Shown: positions 13,228-32,755 of the stretch, piece by piece
Numbering within the stretch: the stretch's first letter is position 1
How the letters are laid out: each line of letters begins with the position of its first letter
Assembly (NCBI GenBank): GCA_944363675.1
Contig: CALVUT010000092.1
Coordinates: 1-32,767, forward strand
Direction of reading: 5' to 3'
DNA: 32,767 nucleotides
From: an uncultured Bacilli bacterium
GTDB lineage: Bacteria; Bacillota_I; Bacilli_A; RF39; UBA660
The notes under the pieces: generated by a model
Seen by the model: the letters and a program-made list of their open reading frames with translations, nothing else
Told to the model about the DNA's origin: nothing
The model's database searches: none
Made by a program: the position numbers and the translations under genes

Positions 13228-13233
13228 ACATTT

Positions 13234-13446
13234 ATGAAGCGAAGAACATGACTAAGTAGTTTCTTTATTACCTCGATAGAGAAAAAGCATCATAGGCTGA
13301 AAGTGCTTTTGAGAAAATAAAGAAATGAATTTCATTATGGGAGCTTTAATCGTATTTCTGCGTTAAAGAAAGAAAGTGTATAGTTAAAACTATAAAATAA
13401 GGTGGTACCACGGGTGATCTCGTCCTTATGTTTATAGTTTTTTTGT
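13234..13446 (+). promoter_or_regulatory. T-box riboswitch, phenylalanine specifier
   Basis: A tRNA-sensing leader. The conserved T-box motif AAGGTGGTACCACGGG is at 13399-13414. Stem I carries AGAGAA and AGGCTGAAAG-type distal elements (about 13278-13305) and the specifier loop with TTC at 13331-13333 between GAAT and ATTATGGGAGC, matching tRNA-Phe. The T-box overlaps one side of the terminator: AAACTATAAAATAAGG and CCTTATGTTTATAGTTT flank it and lead into a T-run. Uncharged tRNA-Phe would pair with TGGT in the T-box and allow read-through into HAD-pheS-pheT. Confidence 0.93.
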
Positions 13447-13467: not shown

Positions 13468-14061
13468 ATGACGACTAAATACATTTTTGACTTAGATGAA
13501 ACAATAACCAAAACCAATTATCAATATGAGGAAGTTTTTTTTAAGAGTCATATGGGTGAAGATGCCAAATCTTTTTTGCCTCGTAAATATGAACTATTAA
13601 TGAGTTATGAAAAGTTATATAAAAAATACGACGTGAAAAACTTAAGTGACCATTTTGCCAATTATGGATTCAACATTCCACCGTATGTGATTGAAGAATG
13701 GACGGATTTTAAAGGAAACGTTGAAGCAATTCCAGAAATGGCAAGTCTTATCGTTTGGCTTGCCGATCAAAACAAAAAATTAATTTTATTAAGCAACTGG
13801 TTTACAAAAGCCCAAAAAGAAAAATTGCATAGAGTTGGTTTGCTCTCCTACTTTGATACCATTATTGGAGGCGATTATGCTTTAAAGCCCAATCCAGAAA
13901 GTTTTGAGTTAGCCATTGGGCAAACCCCTATAGAAGATTGCATCATGATTGGAGACGATTATGAAAAGGATTTTTTGGGAGCTATTCAAATGGGCTTATC
14001 TGCGTATCACGTTACAGACAAAAATAGAAATGAAATAATTAGAAAGTTGAGGTTAAAATAA
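13468..14061 (+). CDS. HAD-superfamily hydrolase, first gene of the phe operon
   Basis: A 197-residue HAD phosphatase-like protein: motif I FDLDETIT (nucleophile Asp and acid/base Asp), motif II LLSNW, motif III Lys in ALKPNP, and motif IV IGDDYEKD. The cap is of the small helical type inserted after motif I. AAGGAGG lies 8 bases before the ATG. It sits between the phenylalanine T-box and pheS, with pheS starting one base after its stop, so it is expressed under phenylalanine starvation. Substrate unknown; the HAD fold is clear. Confidence 0.87.
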   Translation: MTTKYIFDLDETITKTNYQYEEVFFKSHMGEDAKSFLPRKYELLMSYEKLYKKYDVKNLSDHFANYGFNIPPYVIEEWTDFKGNVEAIPEMASLIVWLADQNKKLILLSNWFTKAQKEKLHRVGLLSYFDTIIGGDYALKPNPESFELAIGQTPIEDCIMIGDDYEKDFLGAIQMGLSAYHVTDKNRNEIIRKLRLK

Positions 14062-21988: not shown

Positions 21989-22954
21989 AATGTGATAATT
22001 GCAATTGTCAAGTATATTATATAAAAGAGCATAAACACACTTATAAGATAAAAGGAAAATAAATCACCTTTGTCTCTCCACGAAAATTCTGTAAAAATTG
22101 CCATCAATTGGTATATGATGCTAAATTAGATAACAAAGCAGGATGTAAAGCAATAGAGGAATATAATTTGAAATACGTTATTAATAAAGAAGAAATAATC
22201 AAACTAAGAAAAAGCCATCATCTATCACAAGAATTATTTGCTAAAATCATTGGCTGTGCCAAAAAAACATTAATCAGTTATGAAAAAGGAACCTCAATAC
22301 CTAATGATATTTACACTATCGTTTTAAATAGTTTGTTAAATAAACCAGATACACTGATAACTTTAATTGAGTCCAACAAAAATCATTTTACCACGAAAGA
22401 ATATCGTAAAATAAAAGAACAAATAAATAAAAGTAATGTGATAAGTGACAAGGAAGTAGAGAAAAAAACATACTTACAGAATTCAATGGCTATACAGAAT
22501 TGAATAACAACAAAATAGTAAATATGATTCTAATTTTATCGAGTGATGGTGTATTAAAAACGAAATTATTAAAAGAAATGTTTTATGCTGATTTTTATAC
22601 TATAAAAATTTTGGGGCATCAATTACCGGTTTAGAATATGCAAAACTAGATTATGGACCGGTACCAAATTGTTATGAGAAAATATTAGATTATTGTATAG
22701 AAAAACATTTGATTCAATATCAAGTAGAATATGAAAAAGATTATGAATGTCATAAAATCAAACAAATTGCCAAAAATGACATTGCAATTTTTAATAAAGA
22801 TGAATTAAATACGATAACTAAAGTAAAAAGATATTTTCAGGATTATAAATCAAAAGATATAGTGGATTTTTCCCATAAAGAAAAAGGTTTTATAGAAACT
22901 GAATTTTATAAAAATATAAGTTACGATTATGCATTTAACATAAATTTGGTATAA
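21985..22954 (+). pseudogene. Zn-finger/HTH/SocA-Panacea antitoxin, three inactivating lesions
   Basis: Reading across frames restores one protein: N-terminal zinc finger (CDNC near the start, FCKNC later), an XRE helix-turn-helix (IIKLRKSHHLSQELFAKIIG... KTLISYEKG), then a SocA/Panacea (DUF4065) domain with LKTKLLKEMFYADF, ITGLEYAKLDYGPVP and the end VDFSHKEKGFIET. Lesions seen: a TAA stop at codon 26 (22060-22062; AAA would fit), a one-base loss near 22480, and another near 22600. The first piece could still make a 25-residue peptide and the HTH part starts with ATG at 22108 (to 22503), so a truncated HTH protein of 131 residues might be made. Intact relatives pair with an MqsR-like toxin. 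Confidence 0.8.
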
Positions 22955-26663: not shown

Positions 26664-27392
26664 TTATCTAATTTTGCATAATTTTTTTACGTAATTATAT
26701 AATCCACTATTTTGAGAAAAGTCAGCTTTAGTGTAAAAATCAACGACATCTTTTTCTTTAATAGACTGCATATCTTTACTATTTAAATTTTTATATACAA
26801 AAATTGAAGTACCACCATGCTCTTTGATATATTTCATTGCATAATAGTCTGTGAATCCATCTCCAATATATATAATATTAGAACAATCCTCATTATCAAT
26901 TCCATTTTTTTTCAAAATTTCTTTTATTGCAATAACTTTATTTTTATCGCTCATTAAAAATTCAAAACCATTAGCTTCATAATCTTGATTATAAGTAAAA
27001 ATAGTTGCATAAATTTCTTTAAAATATGACGAAATTGAAATTTTTTCTAAAAAGACTTTTACTCCTGAACTTAATAAATAATTACTAATATTATTTTGGT
27101 ACAGCATATTTAAAAATTCTATTACACCATTATTATAATCGACATTATCATAACCTAAAGAAAAATTTTCATCTGTCAATTTGAAACCTGCGTTTTTAAT
27201 TATTTCAAAATATGTATCATACATAGCTCGATATAAATCAATATTCTCAACTTTAGACCTTTTTTGCGCTAATTCTAAAAACTGAGGACTGTGGGCTCCA
27301 TCTTTCATACCACTTTTTTCTAAAATTTCAAACTTAGGTAGTGAATATGGGGTTAATGTTCCATCAAAGTCATAAATAATAATTTCTTTCAC
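26664..27392 (-). CDS. HAD-family phosphatase, phosphoserine phosphatase-like
   Basis: A 242-residue HAD enzyme: motif I YDFDGTLTPY, motif II LLSSG, motif III Lys in MSDKNKV, motif IV GDGFTDYYAM. The helical cap lies between motifs I and II (residues about 15-95). The order resembles SerB-like phosphatases, but the substrate cannot be told. AGGGAGG lies upstream of the ATG. It follows the relaxase remnant and precedes the AlbA remnant, so it may be cargo or part of the older chromosome; a tail-end position is all the sequence shows. Confidence 0.85.
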   Translation of the reverse strand: MKEIIIYDFDGTLTPYSLPKFEILEKSGMKDGAHSPQFLELAQKRSKVENIDLYRAMYDTYFEIIKNAGFKLTDENFSLGYDNVDYNNGVIEFLNMLYQNNISNYLLSSGVKVFLEKISISSYFKEIYATIFTYNQDYEANGFEFLMSDKNKVIAIKEILKKNGIDNEDCSNIIYIGDGFTDYYAMKYIKEHGGTSIFVYKNLNSKDMQSIKEKDVVDFYTKADFSQNSGLYNYVKKLCKIR

Positions 27393-27479: not shown

Positions 27480-27677
27480 CTATCTGTTCATATCAAAATC
27501 ATCATTATCTTTTGAATAATTGCCATATTGAATATATTCAATATCTTCATTTCTACCTTCTAATTTTTCTAATAATTCCATATTTGTTTCGTAAATTTTA
27601 TTAAACGATTCCTTACAGTATATTCGCATAGTATCTTGAATTTCGTGTAACGATTCTTTGATGAACATTTGGCTCAT
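27480..27677 (-). pseudogene. Fragment of a second MobV relaxase gene
   Basis: The frame reads MSQMFIKESLHEIQDTM and LEKLEGRNEDIEYIQYGN. It matches the intact relaxase at 31064-32410 over VFTKESLIRLQDKM ... KGRNRDIHVSDMDNY, the part just after its catalytic HxDExxPHLH motif. All the N-terminal and C-terminal parts are missing. It overlaps in another frame the end of the 90-residue ORF upstream, so the junction of a deletion probably lies near 27677. Shows that this locus once held another MobV element or a duplicated one. Confidence 0.7.
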
Positions 27678-27885
27678 AATTAAATGCTAGATAAGTAGTT
27701 CCATTTATAATAATTCTATGAGGTTCTACATAGGTGAGATTTGTGTGTTCAATTGTTCTAATACTTCCATTATGAATAGTTGGTGTAGTATTATAAAAGC
27801 TACATATAAATTCAATTTTATTTTTTAAAACAGCTCCAATTTCAATTTCTTGTTTAATAATATTAACCATTAAAGAATCTCTCAC
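27613..27885 (-). CDS. Small ORF of unknown function
   Basis: About 85-90 residues, start GTG at 27885 or ATG at 27870 (AGTGAGAG upstream of the latter). The readable core is IKQEIEIGAVLKNKIEFICSFYNT and RIIINGTTYLAFNYEP, rich in beta strands; no family recognised. The last 15 or so residues read through DNA that, in another frame, belongs to the relaxase remnant, so the true C terminus is probably lost and the gene may be a truncated fusion product. It lies after a structured leader with its own promoter and terminator. Confidence 0.4.
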   Translation of the reverse strand: MRDSLMVNIIKQEIEIGAVLKNKIEFICSFYNTTPTIHNGSIRTIEHTNLTYVEPHRIIINGTTYLAFNYEPNVHQRIVTRNSRYYANIL

Positions 27886-27929: not shown

Positions 27930-28036
27930 ATTTATCATTAAGCTCAAAACTATAAAAGTTCGAGCAATTATCAATCTGGTGCGATAGCTAAGATAGTCCG
28001 AAACCATCACAACAAATAAATAAACAATTTAATTCT
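27899..28036 (-). ncRNA. Structured leader or small RNA of about 138 nt
   Basis: From the predicted start of the promoter at 28043-28071 to the terminator at 27899. Minus-strand elements: ACTATC-TTAG-CTATCG pattern near 27975, GCTCGAACT with AGTTTTGAGC hairpin (around 27942-27965) and the terminal hairpin. No known riboswitch or tRNA feature is recognised. Confidence 0.35.
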
Positions 28037-28042
28037 ATAATC

Positions 28043-28071
28043 ATTATAGCACAATTTTAATTAATTGTTTA
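28043..28071 (-). promoter_or_regulatory. Promoter of the structured leader
   Basis: On the minus strand TAAACA (plus 28066-28071), a 17-base spacer, and TATAAT (plus 28043-28048) with extended TGC. The -35 overlaps the stop codon of the three-Cys gene. Confidence 0.6.
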
Positions 28072-28851
28072 TGTATTTTGCATTTCTGTTATAGTTTTTT
28101 CTTTTATATGATATTCAATATTTCTTTCTTCACAAAACTTAATAACTTGACTTGCTAGATTATTATAATATTCTTTATAACCTTTATATTGACTAACAAG
28201 TTTATTATAATGAAGTCTGCCAAATATTATTTTATCTACAAAAGAAATAGAATTTAGTATTTCTTCAAAATCTTGATCAATTATATTTGGTGTTGGATAA
28301 GGTTCAATACTAACCCAAGTTTTACATCCTTTATCATGAAGTTTTTTTAAACTATTAATTCTATCTAAATATGGTGCTGAACCAGGCTCCATTTTTTTTC
28401 TAAATTCTTCGTTTAGAGATATAAGAGTTATACCATAACTATTGTCTTTACTCAAATCTGCTAATTCTATTGGTAATACTCCTTTAGTTAAAGCAGTACA
28501 TGGTAAATTATAACTATTTATTAATTTAATCACATCAATTGATAAATTACATATATCATCATATCCATACATAAAAGGATCAGTAGTAAAACACAAATGA
28601 ACACTTTTAATTTTATCCTTTAATTTAGGTAGTTCCTTATTTAATAATTTCATTGTGTTTGAAACAATAACTGGACATATCCATTCTTCATATGTTTTTA
28701 CAGTGCCAAATCTTTTAGCTAACATTGAAGCATAACAAGGATACTTACAACCATGTGAACAACCTTGAACATGGTTTATAGTATAATCACCATATTCTAC
28801 ACCTGTTTTATATAAAAGAGATTTTCTTTCCATAGACTTATTACATATCAT
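28069..28851 (-). CDS. Three-Cys-motif radical SAM-like protein (TcmP partner)
   Basis: A 260-residue protein with a C-x3-C-x3-C cluster (Cys31, Cys35, Cys39 in GCSHGCKYPCYA), near the radical SAM C-x3-C-x2-C motif but with one extra residue, as in the three-Cys-motif family that pairs with TcmP. CFTTDPFMYGY, LTKGVL and IEPYPTP follow the spore-photolyase-like barrel pattern. AAAGGAGGT precedes the ATG and an extended -10 (TGG TATAAT, minus; plus 28882-28890) lies in the end of tcmP. Gap to tcmP 31 bases. Function: [4Fe-4S]-dependent chemistry is plausible; the target is unknown. Confidence 0.82.
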   Translation of the reverse strand: MICNKSMERKSLLYKTGVEYGDYTINHVQGCSHGCKYPCYASMLAKRFGTVKTYEEWICPVIVSNTMKLLNKELPKLKDKIKSVHLCFTTDPFMYGYDDICNLSIDVIKLINSYNLPCTALTKGVLPIELADLSKDNSYGITLISLNEEFRKKMEPGSAPYLDRINSLKKLHDKGCKTWVSIEPYPTPNIIDQDFEEILNSISFVDKIIFGRLHYNKLVSQYKGYKEYYNNLASQVIKFCEERNIEYHIKEKTITEMQNT

Positions 28852-28882
28852 TTTTTCTAACCTCCTTTATCATATAATACAA

Positions 28883-29704
28883 TTATACCATAGTTTTATC
28901 TTTTAAAATATACTTTTCTACTTTTTTTACCAATCCAATTGCTTTAGGATTATCATTACTAATTAATAAAAACAATAAAAACAATGGAGAATTCCTACTA
29001 TTTTTAAGTACCAAATAATTTTCAGATACATAAGGAAATACTTCTTTCATTTTTTTGCAAATAAACCTTTGTATATCTTTCACTGAAGCTTTTTCATATT
29101 CAACATCTTGAAATAAATTAAGTTGCGTACTTTCAAAATATAAATCATCTTCCCAGGAATCATCTCCTAAGCACCGATTAAGAACCTTTTTCCAATCATC
29201 ATCAATATTCTTATCTTTTTTAAGCATTCTGTTTACAGCATAAAATGGAAATAAATACCACACATCTATTGCTTTAGTTAATGAAATACTTCTTAGTAAA
29301 TTAAAATCAAGTTGAGTTGCATAAGGATCAATAAAAAGAACTCCTCGACTATATCTCCAATCAATATTATCAATTATTTTTGGTAATGCATCATTGCAAT
29401 CTTCGTTATAAATATGTATATTTAATTCAGGATGCTTTTCTTTTATTTTTTCAAGTTCATGATAATTTTTCTTGTTTTTTTCAATAAAATAATACTCGTC
29501 AAATTTATTATCTAAATTCAAAGACATAGTTGTTGATCCGTCAATCGTTGTTTCATCAGAAAACTCTATTTTCCCACTTCCTGCAAAACAATCTATGTAA
29601 ATTTTTTTAAATCGCATATTCTTTAAGGCAGTCATGTAAAAATTAAGATAATCTTGAAGTATATCGAGTTTTTGCTTTGTCCATTCCCCACCAAATTTAT
29701 TCAT
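28883..29704 (-). CDS. tcmP: Three-Cys-motif partner protein TcmP
   Basis: A 273-residue protein of the TcmP family (Wtkq-K..ILq.YL N terminus; FKKIYIDCFAGSGK; YNEDCND; LFIDPYATQLD). The DCFAGSG (38-44) and DPYA (126-129) motifs are those of a class I SAM-binding methyltransferase-like fold; NEDCND (100-105) fits the adenine-binding strand. It stands beside its usual partner, the three-Cys protein. TcmP pairs occur on mobile and defence-type loci, but their role is not established in my knowledge. TAGGAGGAG upstream. Confidence 0.85.
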   Translation of the reverse strand: MNKFGGEWTKQKLDILQDYLNFYMTALKNMRFKKIYIDCFAGSGKIEFSDETTIDGSTTMSLNLDNKFDEYYFIEKNKKNYHELEKIKEKHPELNIHIYNEDCNDALPKIIDNIDWRYSRGVLFIDPYATQLDFNLLRSISLTKAIDVWYLFPFYAVNRMLKKDKNIDDDWKKVLNRCLGDDSWEDDLYFESTQLNLFQDVEYEKASVKDIQRFICKKMKEVFPYVSENYLVLKNSRNSPLFLLFLLISNDNPKAIGLVKKVEKYILKDKTMV

Positions 29705-29787
29705 ATTTTCTCCTCCTAACTACTAAAAAAGGCATAGTATTCCTTATATTTATTAATAAGTCTCTACTAGCCCTTATTTTTAATTTA

Positions 29788-30999
29788 TTATTTATTAGAT
29801 GATTCTAATTTTAAAACTTTACAATTAGATCCTTCACCAATTTGAACATTTTGTTTTTTGCCTATCACTTCTAAAAAGTTATCAATTCTATCAATTAAGC
29901 CAGTTAAAGGTAATTCTCCTCTGATACACTTAACCATTTCTATTATTCTTTCTTCGGCTTGATTTACTGATTCCATATTAAAATCAGAATTATCAAAGCT
30001 TATAACCTTTTCGGTTAAATTTTTAGCAATTGCTTCTTGTGTAGAATTAGCAAAATTAGAAACAATAATATCACCACTATTATTACTATTTGCTTGAGGT
30101 AATAATAATGTGTTTGCAGTACCTAATAATGCAGGATTACTAGTTAAATCAACTTTTACACCTTTTCTAGAATAGAAATTTGCACGAATACCTTTTTTTC
30201 TACTAACATCAAATCTATATGTTCCATTTACTTTTCCATTTCCTTTATGTGTTTGAATTGCAACTGACCCATATTCTAAACTATCATCTGGATTTAATAT
30301 AGCTTCAAATGCAACTGAAGCATTATTTTGTTTATTTCTTTTATCATATTTTTTTGCAATTCTCACTAATCGCATTCCTGTACTTAAATCTCTTATTATT
30401 TCAATGTCATCAAACTTTTCCACTAATATGTTACCTTTTAATGATAATGTAAGGTAATCATATTTATATTTTTCTCTCCAATCGTCAGTTAATTGATCAA
30501 GAGTAATTGATATATCAAAATCATTTGATAGTACATTAAAAGATGTATTATAAGAAATTCTTCTTGGATGTTTAAGCGTTAATCTTGCTTTAGAAGATTT
30601 AGAAAATTTGATTGTTCCATTATTGTTAAATGAAAAATGCCTTGTTGACTTATGTGAATTCATACCATACCAATCAATTCTTCCAAATTCAACTTCAAAT
30701 TCCTTACTTCTTTCACCAGTTAGTGTATTATTACCAACTAAAGTTTCTTTAGCAAGAGGTATTCCAATACTATCAGCAGAATAGAAGGCATTTGCTAATT
30801 TGTATCTTGACTCATACTTTCTCTCCATATCTCTTACATCAGCTTCGCCAATTTCATAATGTAAAGGTAAACAATGCGCATCTAATAATTGTTCCCACCA
30901 TGAAGCGTTCCAACTTTTAACACATTCTTCGGCTTTTTGCATTTCTTCTAATACTTTTTCAACGGCAATCAATTGACTCTCTTTATCTAAAATTTCCAT
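29788..30999 (-). CDS. Unrecognised 403-residue mobile-element protein
   Basis: Not recognised. Residues 1-70 are helical and acidic (VEKVLEEMQKAEECVKSW), residues 90-310 look beta-rich with basic turns (FEVEFGRIDWYGMNS, LTLKHPRRISYNTSF, RFDVSRKKGIRANFYSRKG), and the C terminus is helical (LTGLIDRIDNFLEVIGKK). No signal peptide, membrane segment or catalytic motif visible. AGGGGGAA is the ribosome site and an extended -10 (TGA TATAAT, plus 31022-31030) gives its own promoter. It lies between the relaxase and tcmP in the same direction, so it may be a partner of the TcmP module or an accessory DNA-binding protein. Confidence 0.75.
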   Translation of the reverse strand: MEILDKESQLIAVEKVLEEMQKAEECVKSWNASWWEQLLDAHCLPLHYEIGEADVRDMERKYESRYKLANAFYSADSIGIPLAKETLVGNNTLTGERSKEFEVEFGRIDWYGMNSHKSTRHFSFNNNGTIKFSKSSKARLTLKHPRRISYNTSFNVLSNDFDISITLDQLTDDWREKYKYDYLTLSLKGNILVEKFDDIEIIRDLSTGMRLVRIAKKYDKRNKQNNASVAFEAILNPDDSLEYGSVAIQTHKGNGKVNGTYRFDVSRKKGIRANFYSRKGVKVDLTSNPALLGTANTLLLPQANSNNSGDIIVSNFANSTQEAIAKNLTEKVISFDNSDFNMESVNQAEERIIEMVKCIRGELPLTGLIDRIDNFLEVIGKKQNVQIGEGSNCKVLKLESSNK

Positions 31000-31063: not shown

Positions 31064-32410
31064 TTATCTCTCAAAATCATCTTTTTCCTTGTTTAAATCC
31101 AATTCTTCTATGTCATCATCATCTAAAACATTATCATCATACATGTCATTAATAACATCAATGTATTTATCATCTTTATCATACCAACTATGAAGTTTAT
31201 CGTGTAAGAAGGATATTAATTTACTAAATTTATCCTTCCAATAATCTATTGTATCTTTTAAATCTTGTATTTTAGATTTTAAAAATGATATTTCATTATC
31301 CTTTTCTTTAATTGTATCATTTAAAGTCTTAACTCTTAAATTAAGTGCTTCATTATTTTCGATGAGAGTTTTTATCTTATTATTCTTATCTTTTAATTGT
31401 TCGTGAGCATTAACTAGTGTATTGGATAATGTATGAATTTTATCATATTCTTTACTGGAGTTATTTACTTGTTCAATAAAGTCGATAAAAGAATCCCTAT
31501 CTTCTTTTGATAAAATATAATTATCTTTATTTAATTTAGAGATTTTTAATTTATCAATTTTATCTTTTATTTCTTTTGAATTGTTTTTTAATTCATTAGA
31601 TTTTTTATTTGCTTGTTTCAAGTTTTCAGTATTCTTTTCAATTTGCTTTTTCATTTCGATATAGTTATCCATATCAGATACATGAATATCTCTATTTCTA
31701 CCTTTTTGTTTTTGCTTTAAAGTAGAATCTAAACTATATACTTGATTAAATTCTTCAATACATAAAGTTCTCATTTTATCTTGTAATCTAATTAATGATT
31801 CTTTAGTAAATACATCGGATTTACCAACTTGTTTTTCCATACCGTTCTTATTTTTATATTTAATTGGAACACCGACAATATGTAAATGTGGACTTGTCTC
31901 ATCATAATGAATTATAGCACTGGCTACTTTAAAGTTAGGAACAAGCATTTCTAAATCATCAACTTGTTTTTGATAAACTTCAGACATTTTCTTCTTGAAG
32001 TTTTTATCTTTAGTGTCCCAATATTCTTTATCTCCAAGTTCAAGAATAATTTCACAAGCAAGATCTTTTTTCTCATTATTGGATACATTATCAAAATAAT
32101 TTTCTATCATTCTACTAGGTCTAGTTTGTTTAGAATTATATTCTAATCTTGCTTCTTCAAATTCTTTTAAATATAGTTTTTTAACATCATCTAGTGGAGA
32201 AGAAGTTCCTCTTACTATTTCTATTAGTTCTTGGTTATCATCATATTTTCTATAATTATGTTTATCTACTTTTGATAATTGTCTTACATTTTGAATAGCA
32301 TTATTAGGTAAAGATGTTGTTCCACTTAAATTGTTTTTACCATTTTGTTTAGATATATTTTTTCTATTTTTATCACTACCTAAATGTAATGAATAAGCAA
32401 GTTCTGACAT
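31064..32410 (-). CDS. MobV-family relaxase (Mob/Pre)
   Basis: A 448-residue relaxase that nicks oriT to start conjugal mobilization. Motif I is around HNYRKYDD (residues 51-58) and the catalytic-metal motif HYDETSPHLH is at 168-177, typical of MobV/Pre. Then the KESLIRLQDKMR region and a long coiled coil (about 250-400) with an acidic C-terminal tail. AAGGAGG lies upstream of the ATG. The upstream 150 bases have the hairpins expected of an oriT. Intact, so the element could be mobilized by a helper. No type IV secretion genes are in the window. Confidence 0.95.
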   Translation of the reverse strand: MSELAYSLHLGSDKNRKNISKQNGKNNLSGTTSLPNNAIQNVRQLSKVDKHNYRKYDDNQELIEIVRGTSSPLDDVKKLYLKEFEEARLEYNSKQTRPSRMIENYFDNVSNNEKKDLACEIILELGDKEYWDTKDKNFKKKMSEVYQKQVDDLEMLVPNFKVASAIIHYDETSPHLHIVGVPIKYKNKNGMEKQVGKSDVFTKESLIRLQDKMRTLCIEEFNQVYSLDSTLKQKQKGRNRDIHVSDMDNYIEMKKQIEKNTENLKQANKKSNELKNNSKEIKDKIDKLKISKLNKDNYILSKEDRDSFIDFIEQVNNSSKEYDKIHTLSNTLVNAHEQLKDKNNKIKTLIENNEALNLRVKTLNDTIKEKDNEISFLKSKIQDLKDTIDYWKDKFSKLISFLHDKLHSWYDKDDKYIDVINDMYDDNVLDDDDIEELDLNKEKDDFER

Positions 32411-32639: not shown

Positions 32640-32755
32640 AAAACGTGTTATCAGACATGTCCGATAACACGTTTTATCAGACAAAAATTATTATCAGACA
32701 TTTTAAGTAAGAAGTATTGATAATGCAATAAAATATTTTACTTTTTATCTGATAA
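32640..32755. repeat. Cluster of resolvase-type half-sites
   Basis: TTATCAGACA occurs at 32648-32657, 32674-32683 and 32691-32700; the opposite orientation as TGTCCGATAA at 32658-32667 and TATCTGATAA at 32746-32755. TGTCYGATAA is the half-site consensus of Tn3-family resolvase/invertase sites. The pair 32658-32667 and 32674-32683 has the inward geometry of a site, 26 bases long. A 13-bp perfect inverted repeat (32640-32652 with 32663-32675) lies within. Confidence 0.6.

Follow-up and report, generated by a model that had tools for sequence, protein, structure and literature searches.

The gene for TcmP, which lies directly upstream of a gene for a three-Cys radical SAM partner, is replaced as a module, with sharp DNA breakpoints, among related mobilizable elements. 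Pairs of this kind are already known and listed as a candidate defence system; what is new here is the distinct clade to which the partner belongs and the modular exchange of TcmP. The best reading of these observations, which we hold with middling confidence, is that the pair forms a modular unit for modifying the bases of nucleic acid and takes part in phage-host conflict.

The pair and its carrier element

The window, meaning the whole stretch of 32,767 nucleotides that was analysed, corresponds to contig C92 in the draft genome (1.34 Mb) of a gut bacterium. Both open reading frames described in an earlier note on this DNA were present on the minus strand where it had placed them, and all those details of its observations that were open to checking proved correct. 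tcmP (28883-29704, minus strand) encodes 273 amino acids and is followed, after a gap of 31 nt, by the radical SAM gene on the same strand (28069-28851, minus strand; 260 amino acids). The note had assigned the pair to a mobilizable element, which is backed by a Mob_Pre/MobV-type relaxase gene of the carrier element (31064-32410, minus strand; 448 amino acids). Its product matched PF01076 (Mob_Pre) at 1.3e-11 and 45 bits, above the gathering cut-off of 25.5, and scored 33.4 bits against the NCBIfam MobV equivalog, short of the cut-off of 100. Upstream of the relaxase start, at a distance of approximately 230 bp, there is a near-perfect inverted repeat (32640-32675; 18-bp arms, 94%), possibly an origin of transfer or a regulatory site.

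Between the relaxase gene and tcmP lies a third gene (29788-30999, minus strand; 403 amino acids), which is probably exchangeable cargo and not a core of the pair. Its place was taken by other genes in the related elements L002 to L006. Relatives of it occurred in a further nine genomes from the same bacterial family, with a weak match in three of them, and some lay close to remnants of a relaxase (L059, L061). Within that family of bacteria none of these relatives adjoined TcmP, and a search of IMG/VR with the third gene returned no relative. Because related elements have a different gene here and the relatives sit elsewhere, we rejected it as a core third component.

Several other features were observed in the window. 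Two overlapping short open reading frames of 90 and 65 amino acids occupy 27480-27885 (minus strand), the shorter of which is relaxase-like (45% over 53 amino acids) and probably represents a decayed second relaxase gene. A HAD-type phosphatase gene (26664-27392, minus strand) lies at the edge of the element. Farther away are a T-box leader (13233-13430, plus strand; RF00230, 105.7 bits), upstream of an open reading frame starting at 13468, and a gene for a helix-turn-helix protein with weak similarity to the MqsA antitoxin (22108-22503, plus strand). On two other contigs that hold no gene upstream (L001 and L013), the radical SAM gene was 99.9% identical to that of the window over 846 bp and then gave way to transposase-like sequence.

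Exchange of TcmP between related elements

Six related elements (the window and L002 to L006) encoded radical SAM proteins that were 95-97% identical. Upstream of these, the window and L002 carried the 273-aa type of TcmP and L003 to L006 carried a type of ~380 aa from another subfamily; profile comparison showed homology between the larger subfamilies and the small one. Two conserved stretches of DNA bordered the exchanged gene. The first, a leader block of ~95 bp (29698-29792, minus strand), ends at the TcmP start and comprises a terminator-like hairpin, a U6 run and then AGGAGG; it was 82-85% identical by blastn in L003 to L006, with flanks that had no similarity, and was common to elements that differ both in TcmP and in the gene upstream. 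The second, a constant block (27957-28929, minus strand), consists of the last 47 bp of tcmP, the spacer, the radical SAM gene and ~110 bp downstream, and shared ~89-93% DNA identity between elements with different TcmPs. Between leader and constant blocks, the window and L003 to L006 had no DNA similarity across TcmP. The relaxase gene was ~83-90% identical at the DNA level in L003, L004 and L006, where it stood beside other cargo. From this pattern of blocks, the relaxase and radical SAM genes are retained, and replacement affects two adjacent slots, those of the third gene and of TcmP.

TcmP can also be doubled, with two TcmPs before a single radical SAM gene in four loci (L010, L020, L030 and L031). 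On a tree of 34 radical SAM proteins, many of whose branches are weak, the type of the partnering TcmP changed ~12 times, compared with 17.7 for shuffled labels and a minimum of 5. Several loci, L009, L025 and L041 among them, had overlapping genes, which is consistent with translation as one unit. The distribution of the pair was patchy, with 7 of 288 genomes of the order carrying it.

The hairpin and U6 run before the TcmP ribosome-binding site (29712-29776, minus strand) were conserved in L002 to L007, with folding z-scores from -0.2 to -5.0. In other genomes a similar hairpin was found 3' of Fic-like genes (L103, L105 and L107), and thus the hairpin may mark the edges of cassettes. It was not seen before TcmP in the Clostridia loci, and Rfam gave no match at the locus. 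A TcmP-specific riboswitch or attenuator is unsupported, given that a similar hairpin recurs after Fic-like genes and none was seen before the Clostridia TcmP; it is more likely a terminator at the cassette edge, which may also have a role in read-through.

The radical SAM partner and its CX3CX3C motif

The three cysteines of the partner are C31, C35 and C39 in the sequence CSHGCKYPC (residues 31-39). The earlier note had described this CX3CX3C motif as one residue longer than usual, and both the homologues and the profile alignment agree: C31, H33, G34, C35, P38, C39, Y40 and A41 did not vary among the 24 homologues aligned, and profile-profile comparison with canonical radical SAM proteins paired CSHGCKYPCYA with CLHGCTF-CYV, leaving one extra residue before the third Cys. 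As the motif is invariant in all 24 and exactly one residue is inserted, chance or a frame error behind it can be ruled out; judged from these alignments, the spacing is a signature of the clade. The most divergent CX3CX3C homologue (51%) was encoded on a viral contig (L042:5983-6801), with no recognisable TcmP adjoining.

Against PF04055 (Radical_SAM) the partner scored 1.6e-12 and 48.4 bits, above the gathering threshold of 29.5; against DUF5131 (PF07505) it reached 22.7 bits, below the threshold of 28.9. Its AlphaFold model (pLDDT 91) was nearest to spore photoproduct lyase (SPL; Z 19.0, 3.3 Å over 237 residues), with the next family at Z 15.9, and the fold also matched PFL-AE and viperin. 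The partner thus has the Pfam score and the barrel fold of the radical SAM superfamily without its usual CX3CX2C motif. Since CX3CX2C has been described as usual, not universal, for radical SAM proteins (PMC9692996), we file the partner, by predicted fold and Pfam score, as a divergent-motif member of the superfamily. For the CX3CX3C spacing itself we found one precedent, a review that applies the term to NifB yet also gives NifB as CX3CX2C; the former may be a slip. The partner has an SPL-like fold, but differs from SPL in its cluster motif (CX3CX3C instead of CX3CX2C), in sequence (~14% identity over the aligned part) and in its surroundings, in which no sporulation context was seen. Sequence searches returned no credible solved relatives for either the radical SAM partner or DUF5131.

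TcmP resembles RlmJ

The window TcmP is a full member of TIGR04474, without difference from that family, scoring 187.5 bits over residues 7-256 against a curated cut-off of 53. NCBI named TcmP after its three-Cys partner, and the family definition also places the gene beside that of a three-Cys protein, as was the case here and, with equal linkage, in related loci. The methyltransferase motifs pointed out in the earlier note, DCFAGSG (motif I, aa 38-44) and DPYA (motif IV, aa 126-129), are present, with D38, F40, G42, G44, D126 and P127 invariant in an alignment of 20 diverse TcmPs.

The AlphaFold model of TcmP (pLDDT 87) had RlmJ, the 23S rRNA A2030 N6-methyltransferase, as its nearest solved fold (Z 14.0, 3.5 Å, 205 residues aligned), tied with the tRNA methyltransferase Trm1 (Z 13.8). 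RlmJ was also matched at the sequence level by a profile of 20 TcmPs (E 0.0011), in which YIDaFAGtG was paired with YLDTHAGAG at motif I and DP-[FY], one residue shorter, with DPPY at motif IV. TcmP is therefore predicted to have an RlmJ-like class I methyltransferase fold. It is like RlmJ in fold and in motifs I and IV, but DPPY is shortened to DP[YF][GA] (DPYA in the window), identity is 12%, and TcmP is mobile and paired with a radical SAM enzyme. Methylation of an amine by TcmP is uncertain because the DPYA loop is one proline short of DPPY. Trm1 presumably has DPFG at the place of motif IV, which would be closer to the DP[YF][GA] of TcmP. As the nearest folds are RlmJ and SPL, both proteins of the pair resemble enzymes that act on nucleobases, though a common fold does not establish a common substrate, either for RlmJ and TcmP or for SPL and the partner.

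Partner types and relation to known systems

The three-Cys proteins found paired with TcmP were of three kinds, namely DUF5131 (CX6CX2C), canonical radical SAM proteins (CX3CX2C) and the CX3CX3C clade. Apart from L042, all loci with enough upstream sequence had a TcmP-type gene immediately upstream of the gene for the CX3CX3C protein. Of the TcmPs retrieved from viral contigs, nearly all had a three-Cys neighbour (L095 stops at TcmP, and in L099 no more than the end of a DUF5131-like protein is present); some of these contigs encoded the CX3CX3C protein as this neighbour and the rest DUF5131. On Nostoc and Natronosalvus plasmids the neighbour was a canonical CX3CX2C radical SAM protein, and the cyanophage Ssp-JY39 encoded TcmP beside a DUF5131-type gene.

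PADLOC lists TcmP with DUF5131 as the candidate phage-defence systems PDC-M30 and PDC-M41. The B models of both match DUF5131 at ~1e-100, and the A models represent different TcmP subfamilies. The window contains the A component of PDC-M41 (PDC-M41A, 1.2e-84, residues 2-268), whereas the larger TcmP subfamilies with which it is exchanged belong to the other model set (the ~380-aa TcmPs to PDC-M30A). Both types thus resemble these systems in TcmP and in having a three-Cys partner adjoining. They differ in the nature of that partner, which is a true DUF5131 in PDC-M30 and PDC-M41 and a CX3CX3C, SPL-like radical SAM protein here: its matches to PDC-M41B (2.5e-5, residues 15-88 only) and PDC-M30B (7.7e-5) span just 40-74 residues, so that the B component is absent. 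PDC systems are candidates without experimental validation (PMC10855318); of 100 P. aeruginosa strains, 32 had PDC-M30 and 68.8% of these were classed as phage-resistant, which is a correlation only (PMC10855318).

The radical SAM mobile pair A/B (TIGR04471/TIGR04470) also consists of two adjacent SAM-type enzymes, and its protein B (TIGR04470) has distant homology to the partner (45 bits, far below the cut-off of 410), but both of its members are radical SAM proteins and it has no TcmP. The best NCBIfam matches of the partner were the PA0069 and Rv2578c families (58 and 49 bits), far below their cut-offs of 360 and 430 bits. In the literature searched, we found no paper on DUF5131, TIGR04474, PDC-M41 or the function of the pair. 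TcmP appeared in tables only, one of which, a table of up-regulated genes, sets it with an Hna helicase gene (S. meliloti TcmP SMa2243 and Hna helicase SMa2245; PMC12445080). A single stretch of an Agrobacterium plasmid (pAt, L070) encoded a DEAD/DEAH helicase and a CHAT protein together with two TcmPs and DUF5131. The earlier note had proposed that two SAM-related enzymes on a mobile element could modify nucleic acid, for defence or to avoid it. Folds, neighbourhoods and the PADLOC candidates fit this proposal, which had missed the named family, the three partner types and the exchange of TcmP.

Genomic neighbourhood

Neighbours were initially chosen by hand, and a fixed rule was applied afterwards, taking the first open reading frame of at least 150 aa downstream of the radical SAM gene in 16 loci; such a neighbourhood describes company, not function. 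A clear PADLOC family match was obtained in 8 of the 16 loci, mostly to restriction-modification (a raw share, not an enrichment). These neighbours were type II restriction enzymes (L010, L037, L040), methyltransferases of type III (L020) and type I (L026), a type IIG enzyme (L041), a DUF262-type Orf5/HEC-06 protein (L032) and HEC-07 (L039). A resolvase-peptidase protein with a weak PADLOC match (L021) was left out of the eight, and the downstream open reading frame had no PADLOC match in L007, L023, L025, L035, L036, L064 and L065. In L022, L028, L030, L031 and L034 the neighbours were classed as type III-like only because they resemble that of L020. Upstream neighbours included a type IIG enzyme (L064) and a Thoeris ThsB-like protein (L021). 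In L036 the unit lay beside a phage terminase, and in L007 a uracil-DNA-glycosylase-like protein adjoined it.

A proposed mechanism and its alternatives

The relationships of fold and motif, the gene linkage, the exchange and the neighbourhoods come directly from the computation; catalytic activity, an exocyclic amine as target, the order of steps and a role in defence are what we infer for a modular base-modification unit. The two proteins very probably act as one unit, which would chemically modify bases of DNA or RNA. TcmP would most likely pick the target and methylate an exocyclic amine, and the radical SAM partner would most likely perform radical chemistry on the base methylated by TcmP. 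In wybutosine synthesis, Trm5 and then TYW1 carry out such a succession of methyltransferase and radical SAM steps on one base, and by analogy we tentatively suggest sequential action on one base here. The radical enzyme would be the constant part, and exchange or doubling of TcmP would change the target. The unit travels in the company of phages and defence genes, and its most likely role, towards which we lean slightly, is in phage-host conflict; this could lie in self-marking, in alteration of phage nucleic acid or in shielding of host RNA. Some copies belong to phage modules (L036), in which the unit could instead serve the phage. In its most specific form, a constant SPL-like CX3CX3C enzyme would be combined with interchangeable RlmJ-like methyltransferases of different targets, creating new hypermodified bases by modular hypermodification in phage-host conflict, which as a whole we regard as rather doubtful.

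The hints as to the target differ, as the nearest fold of the partner acts on DNA and that of TcmP acts on RNA. Possibly, though we would not expect it, the pair modifies host 23S rRNA or tRNA instead of acting on phage DNA and, as Erm or Cfr do, shields translation from a toxin, nuclease or antibiotic that targets RNA. The kinship of TcmP with an enzyme of 23S rRNA A2030 and, tied with it, a tRNA enzyme (14.0 and 13.8) speaks for such a role, and Erm and Cfr, mobile rRNA-modifying methyltransferase and radical SAM enzymes, are precedents for it. However, the partner is nearest to the DNA-acting SPL, the neighbours are mostly DNA restriction systems, and one fixed rRNA site would not predict repeated exchange of TcmP.

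Differing restriction specificities are something that the exchange of TcmP would follow if hypermodification by a phage- or plasmid-borne pair guarded the DNA of its own carrier from host restriction. Many TcmP-DUF5131 pairs in viral (prophage-like) contigs, the terminase adjoining the unit in L036 and the genes of Ssp-JY39 are in keeping with this anti-restriction role, which we nevertheless consider unlikely, many Clostridia copies being directly adjacent to restriction genes and not to phage modules. Both of these alternatives overlap with the broad reading of a base-modification unit in phage-host conflict, from which they differ in substrate and beneficiary. A unit for DNA repair or lesion processing without a tie to phage conflict is very improbable, for although SPL is the nearest fold of the partner and a uracil-DNA-glycosylase-like protein adjoins the unit in L007, the exchange of the methyltransferase, the patchiness (7 of 288 genomes) and the company of restriction genes are atypical of housekeeping repair.

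Implications

Pairs of TcmP and a three-Cys protein recur on phages, plasmids and defence islands, and the literature searched gave no function for them. The kinship with RlmJ and SPL, the three types of partner and the exchange give rise to a testable idea, that of a common radical enzyme with a replaceable targeting methyltransferase. The fixed CX3CX3C spacing offers a clean test case for variability of the radical SAM cluster loop. If the idea is true, radical base chemistry would join the modification-based conflicts, and there would be new nucleosides to look for.
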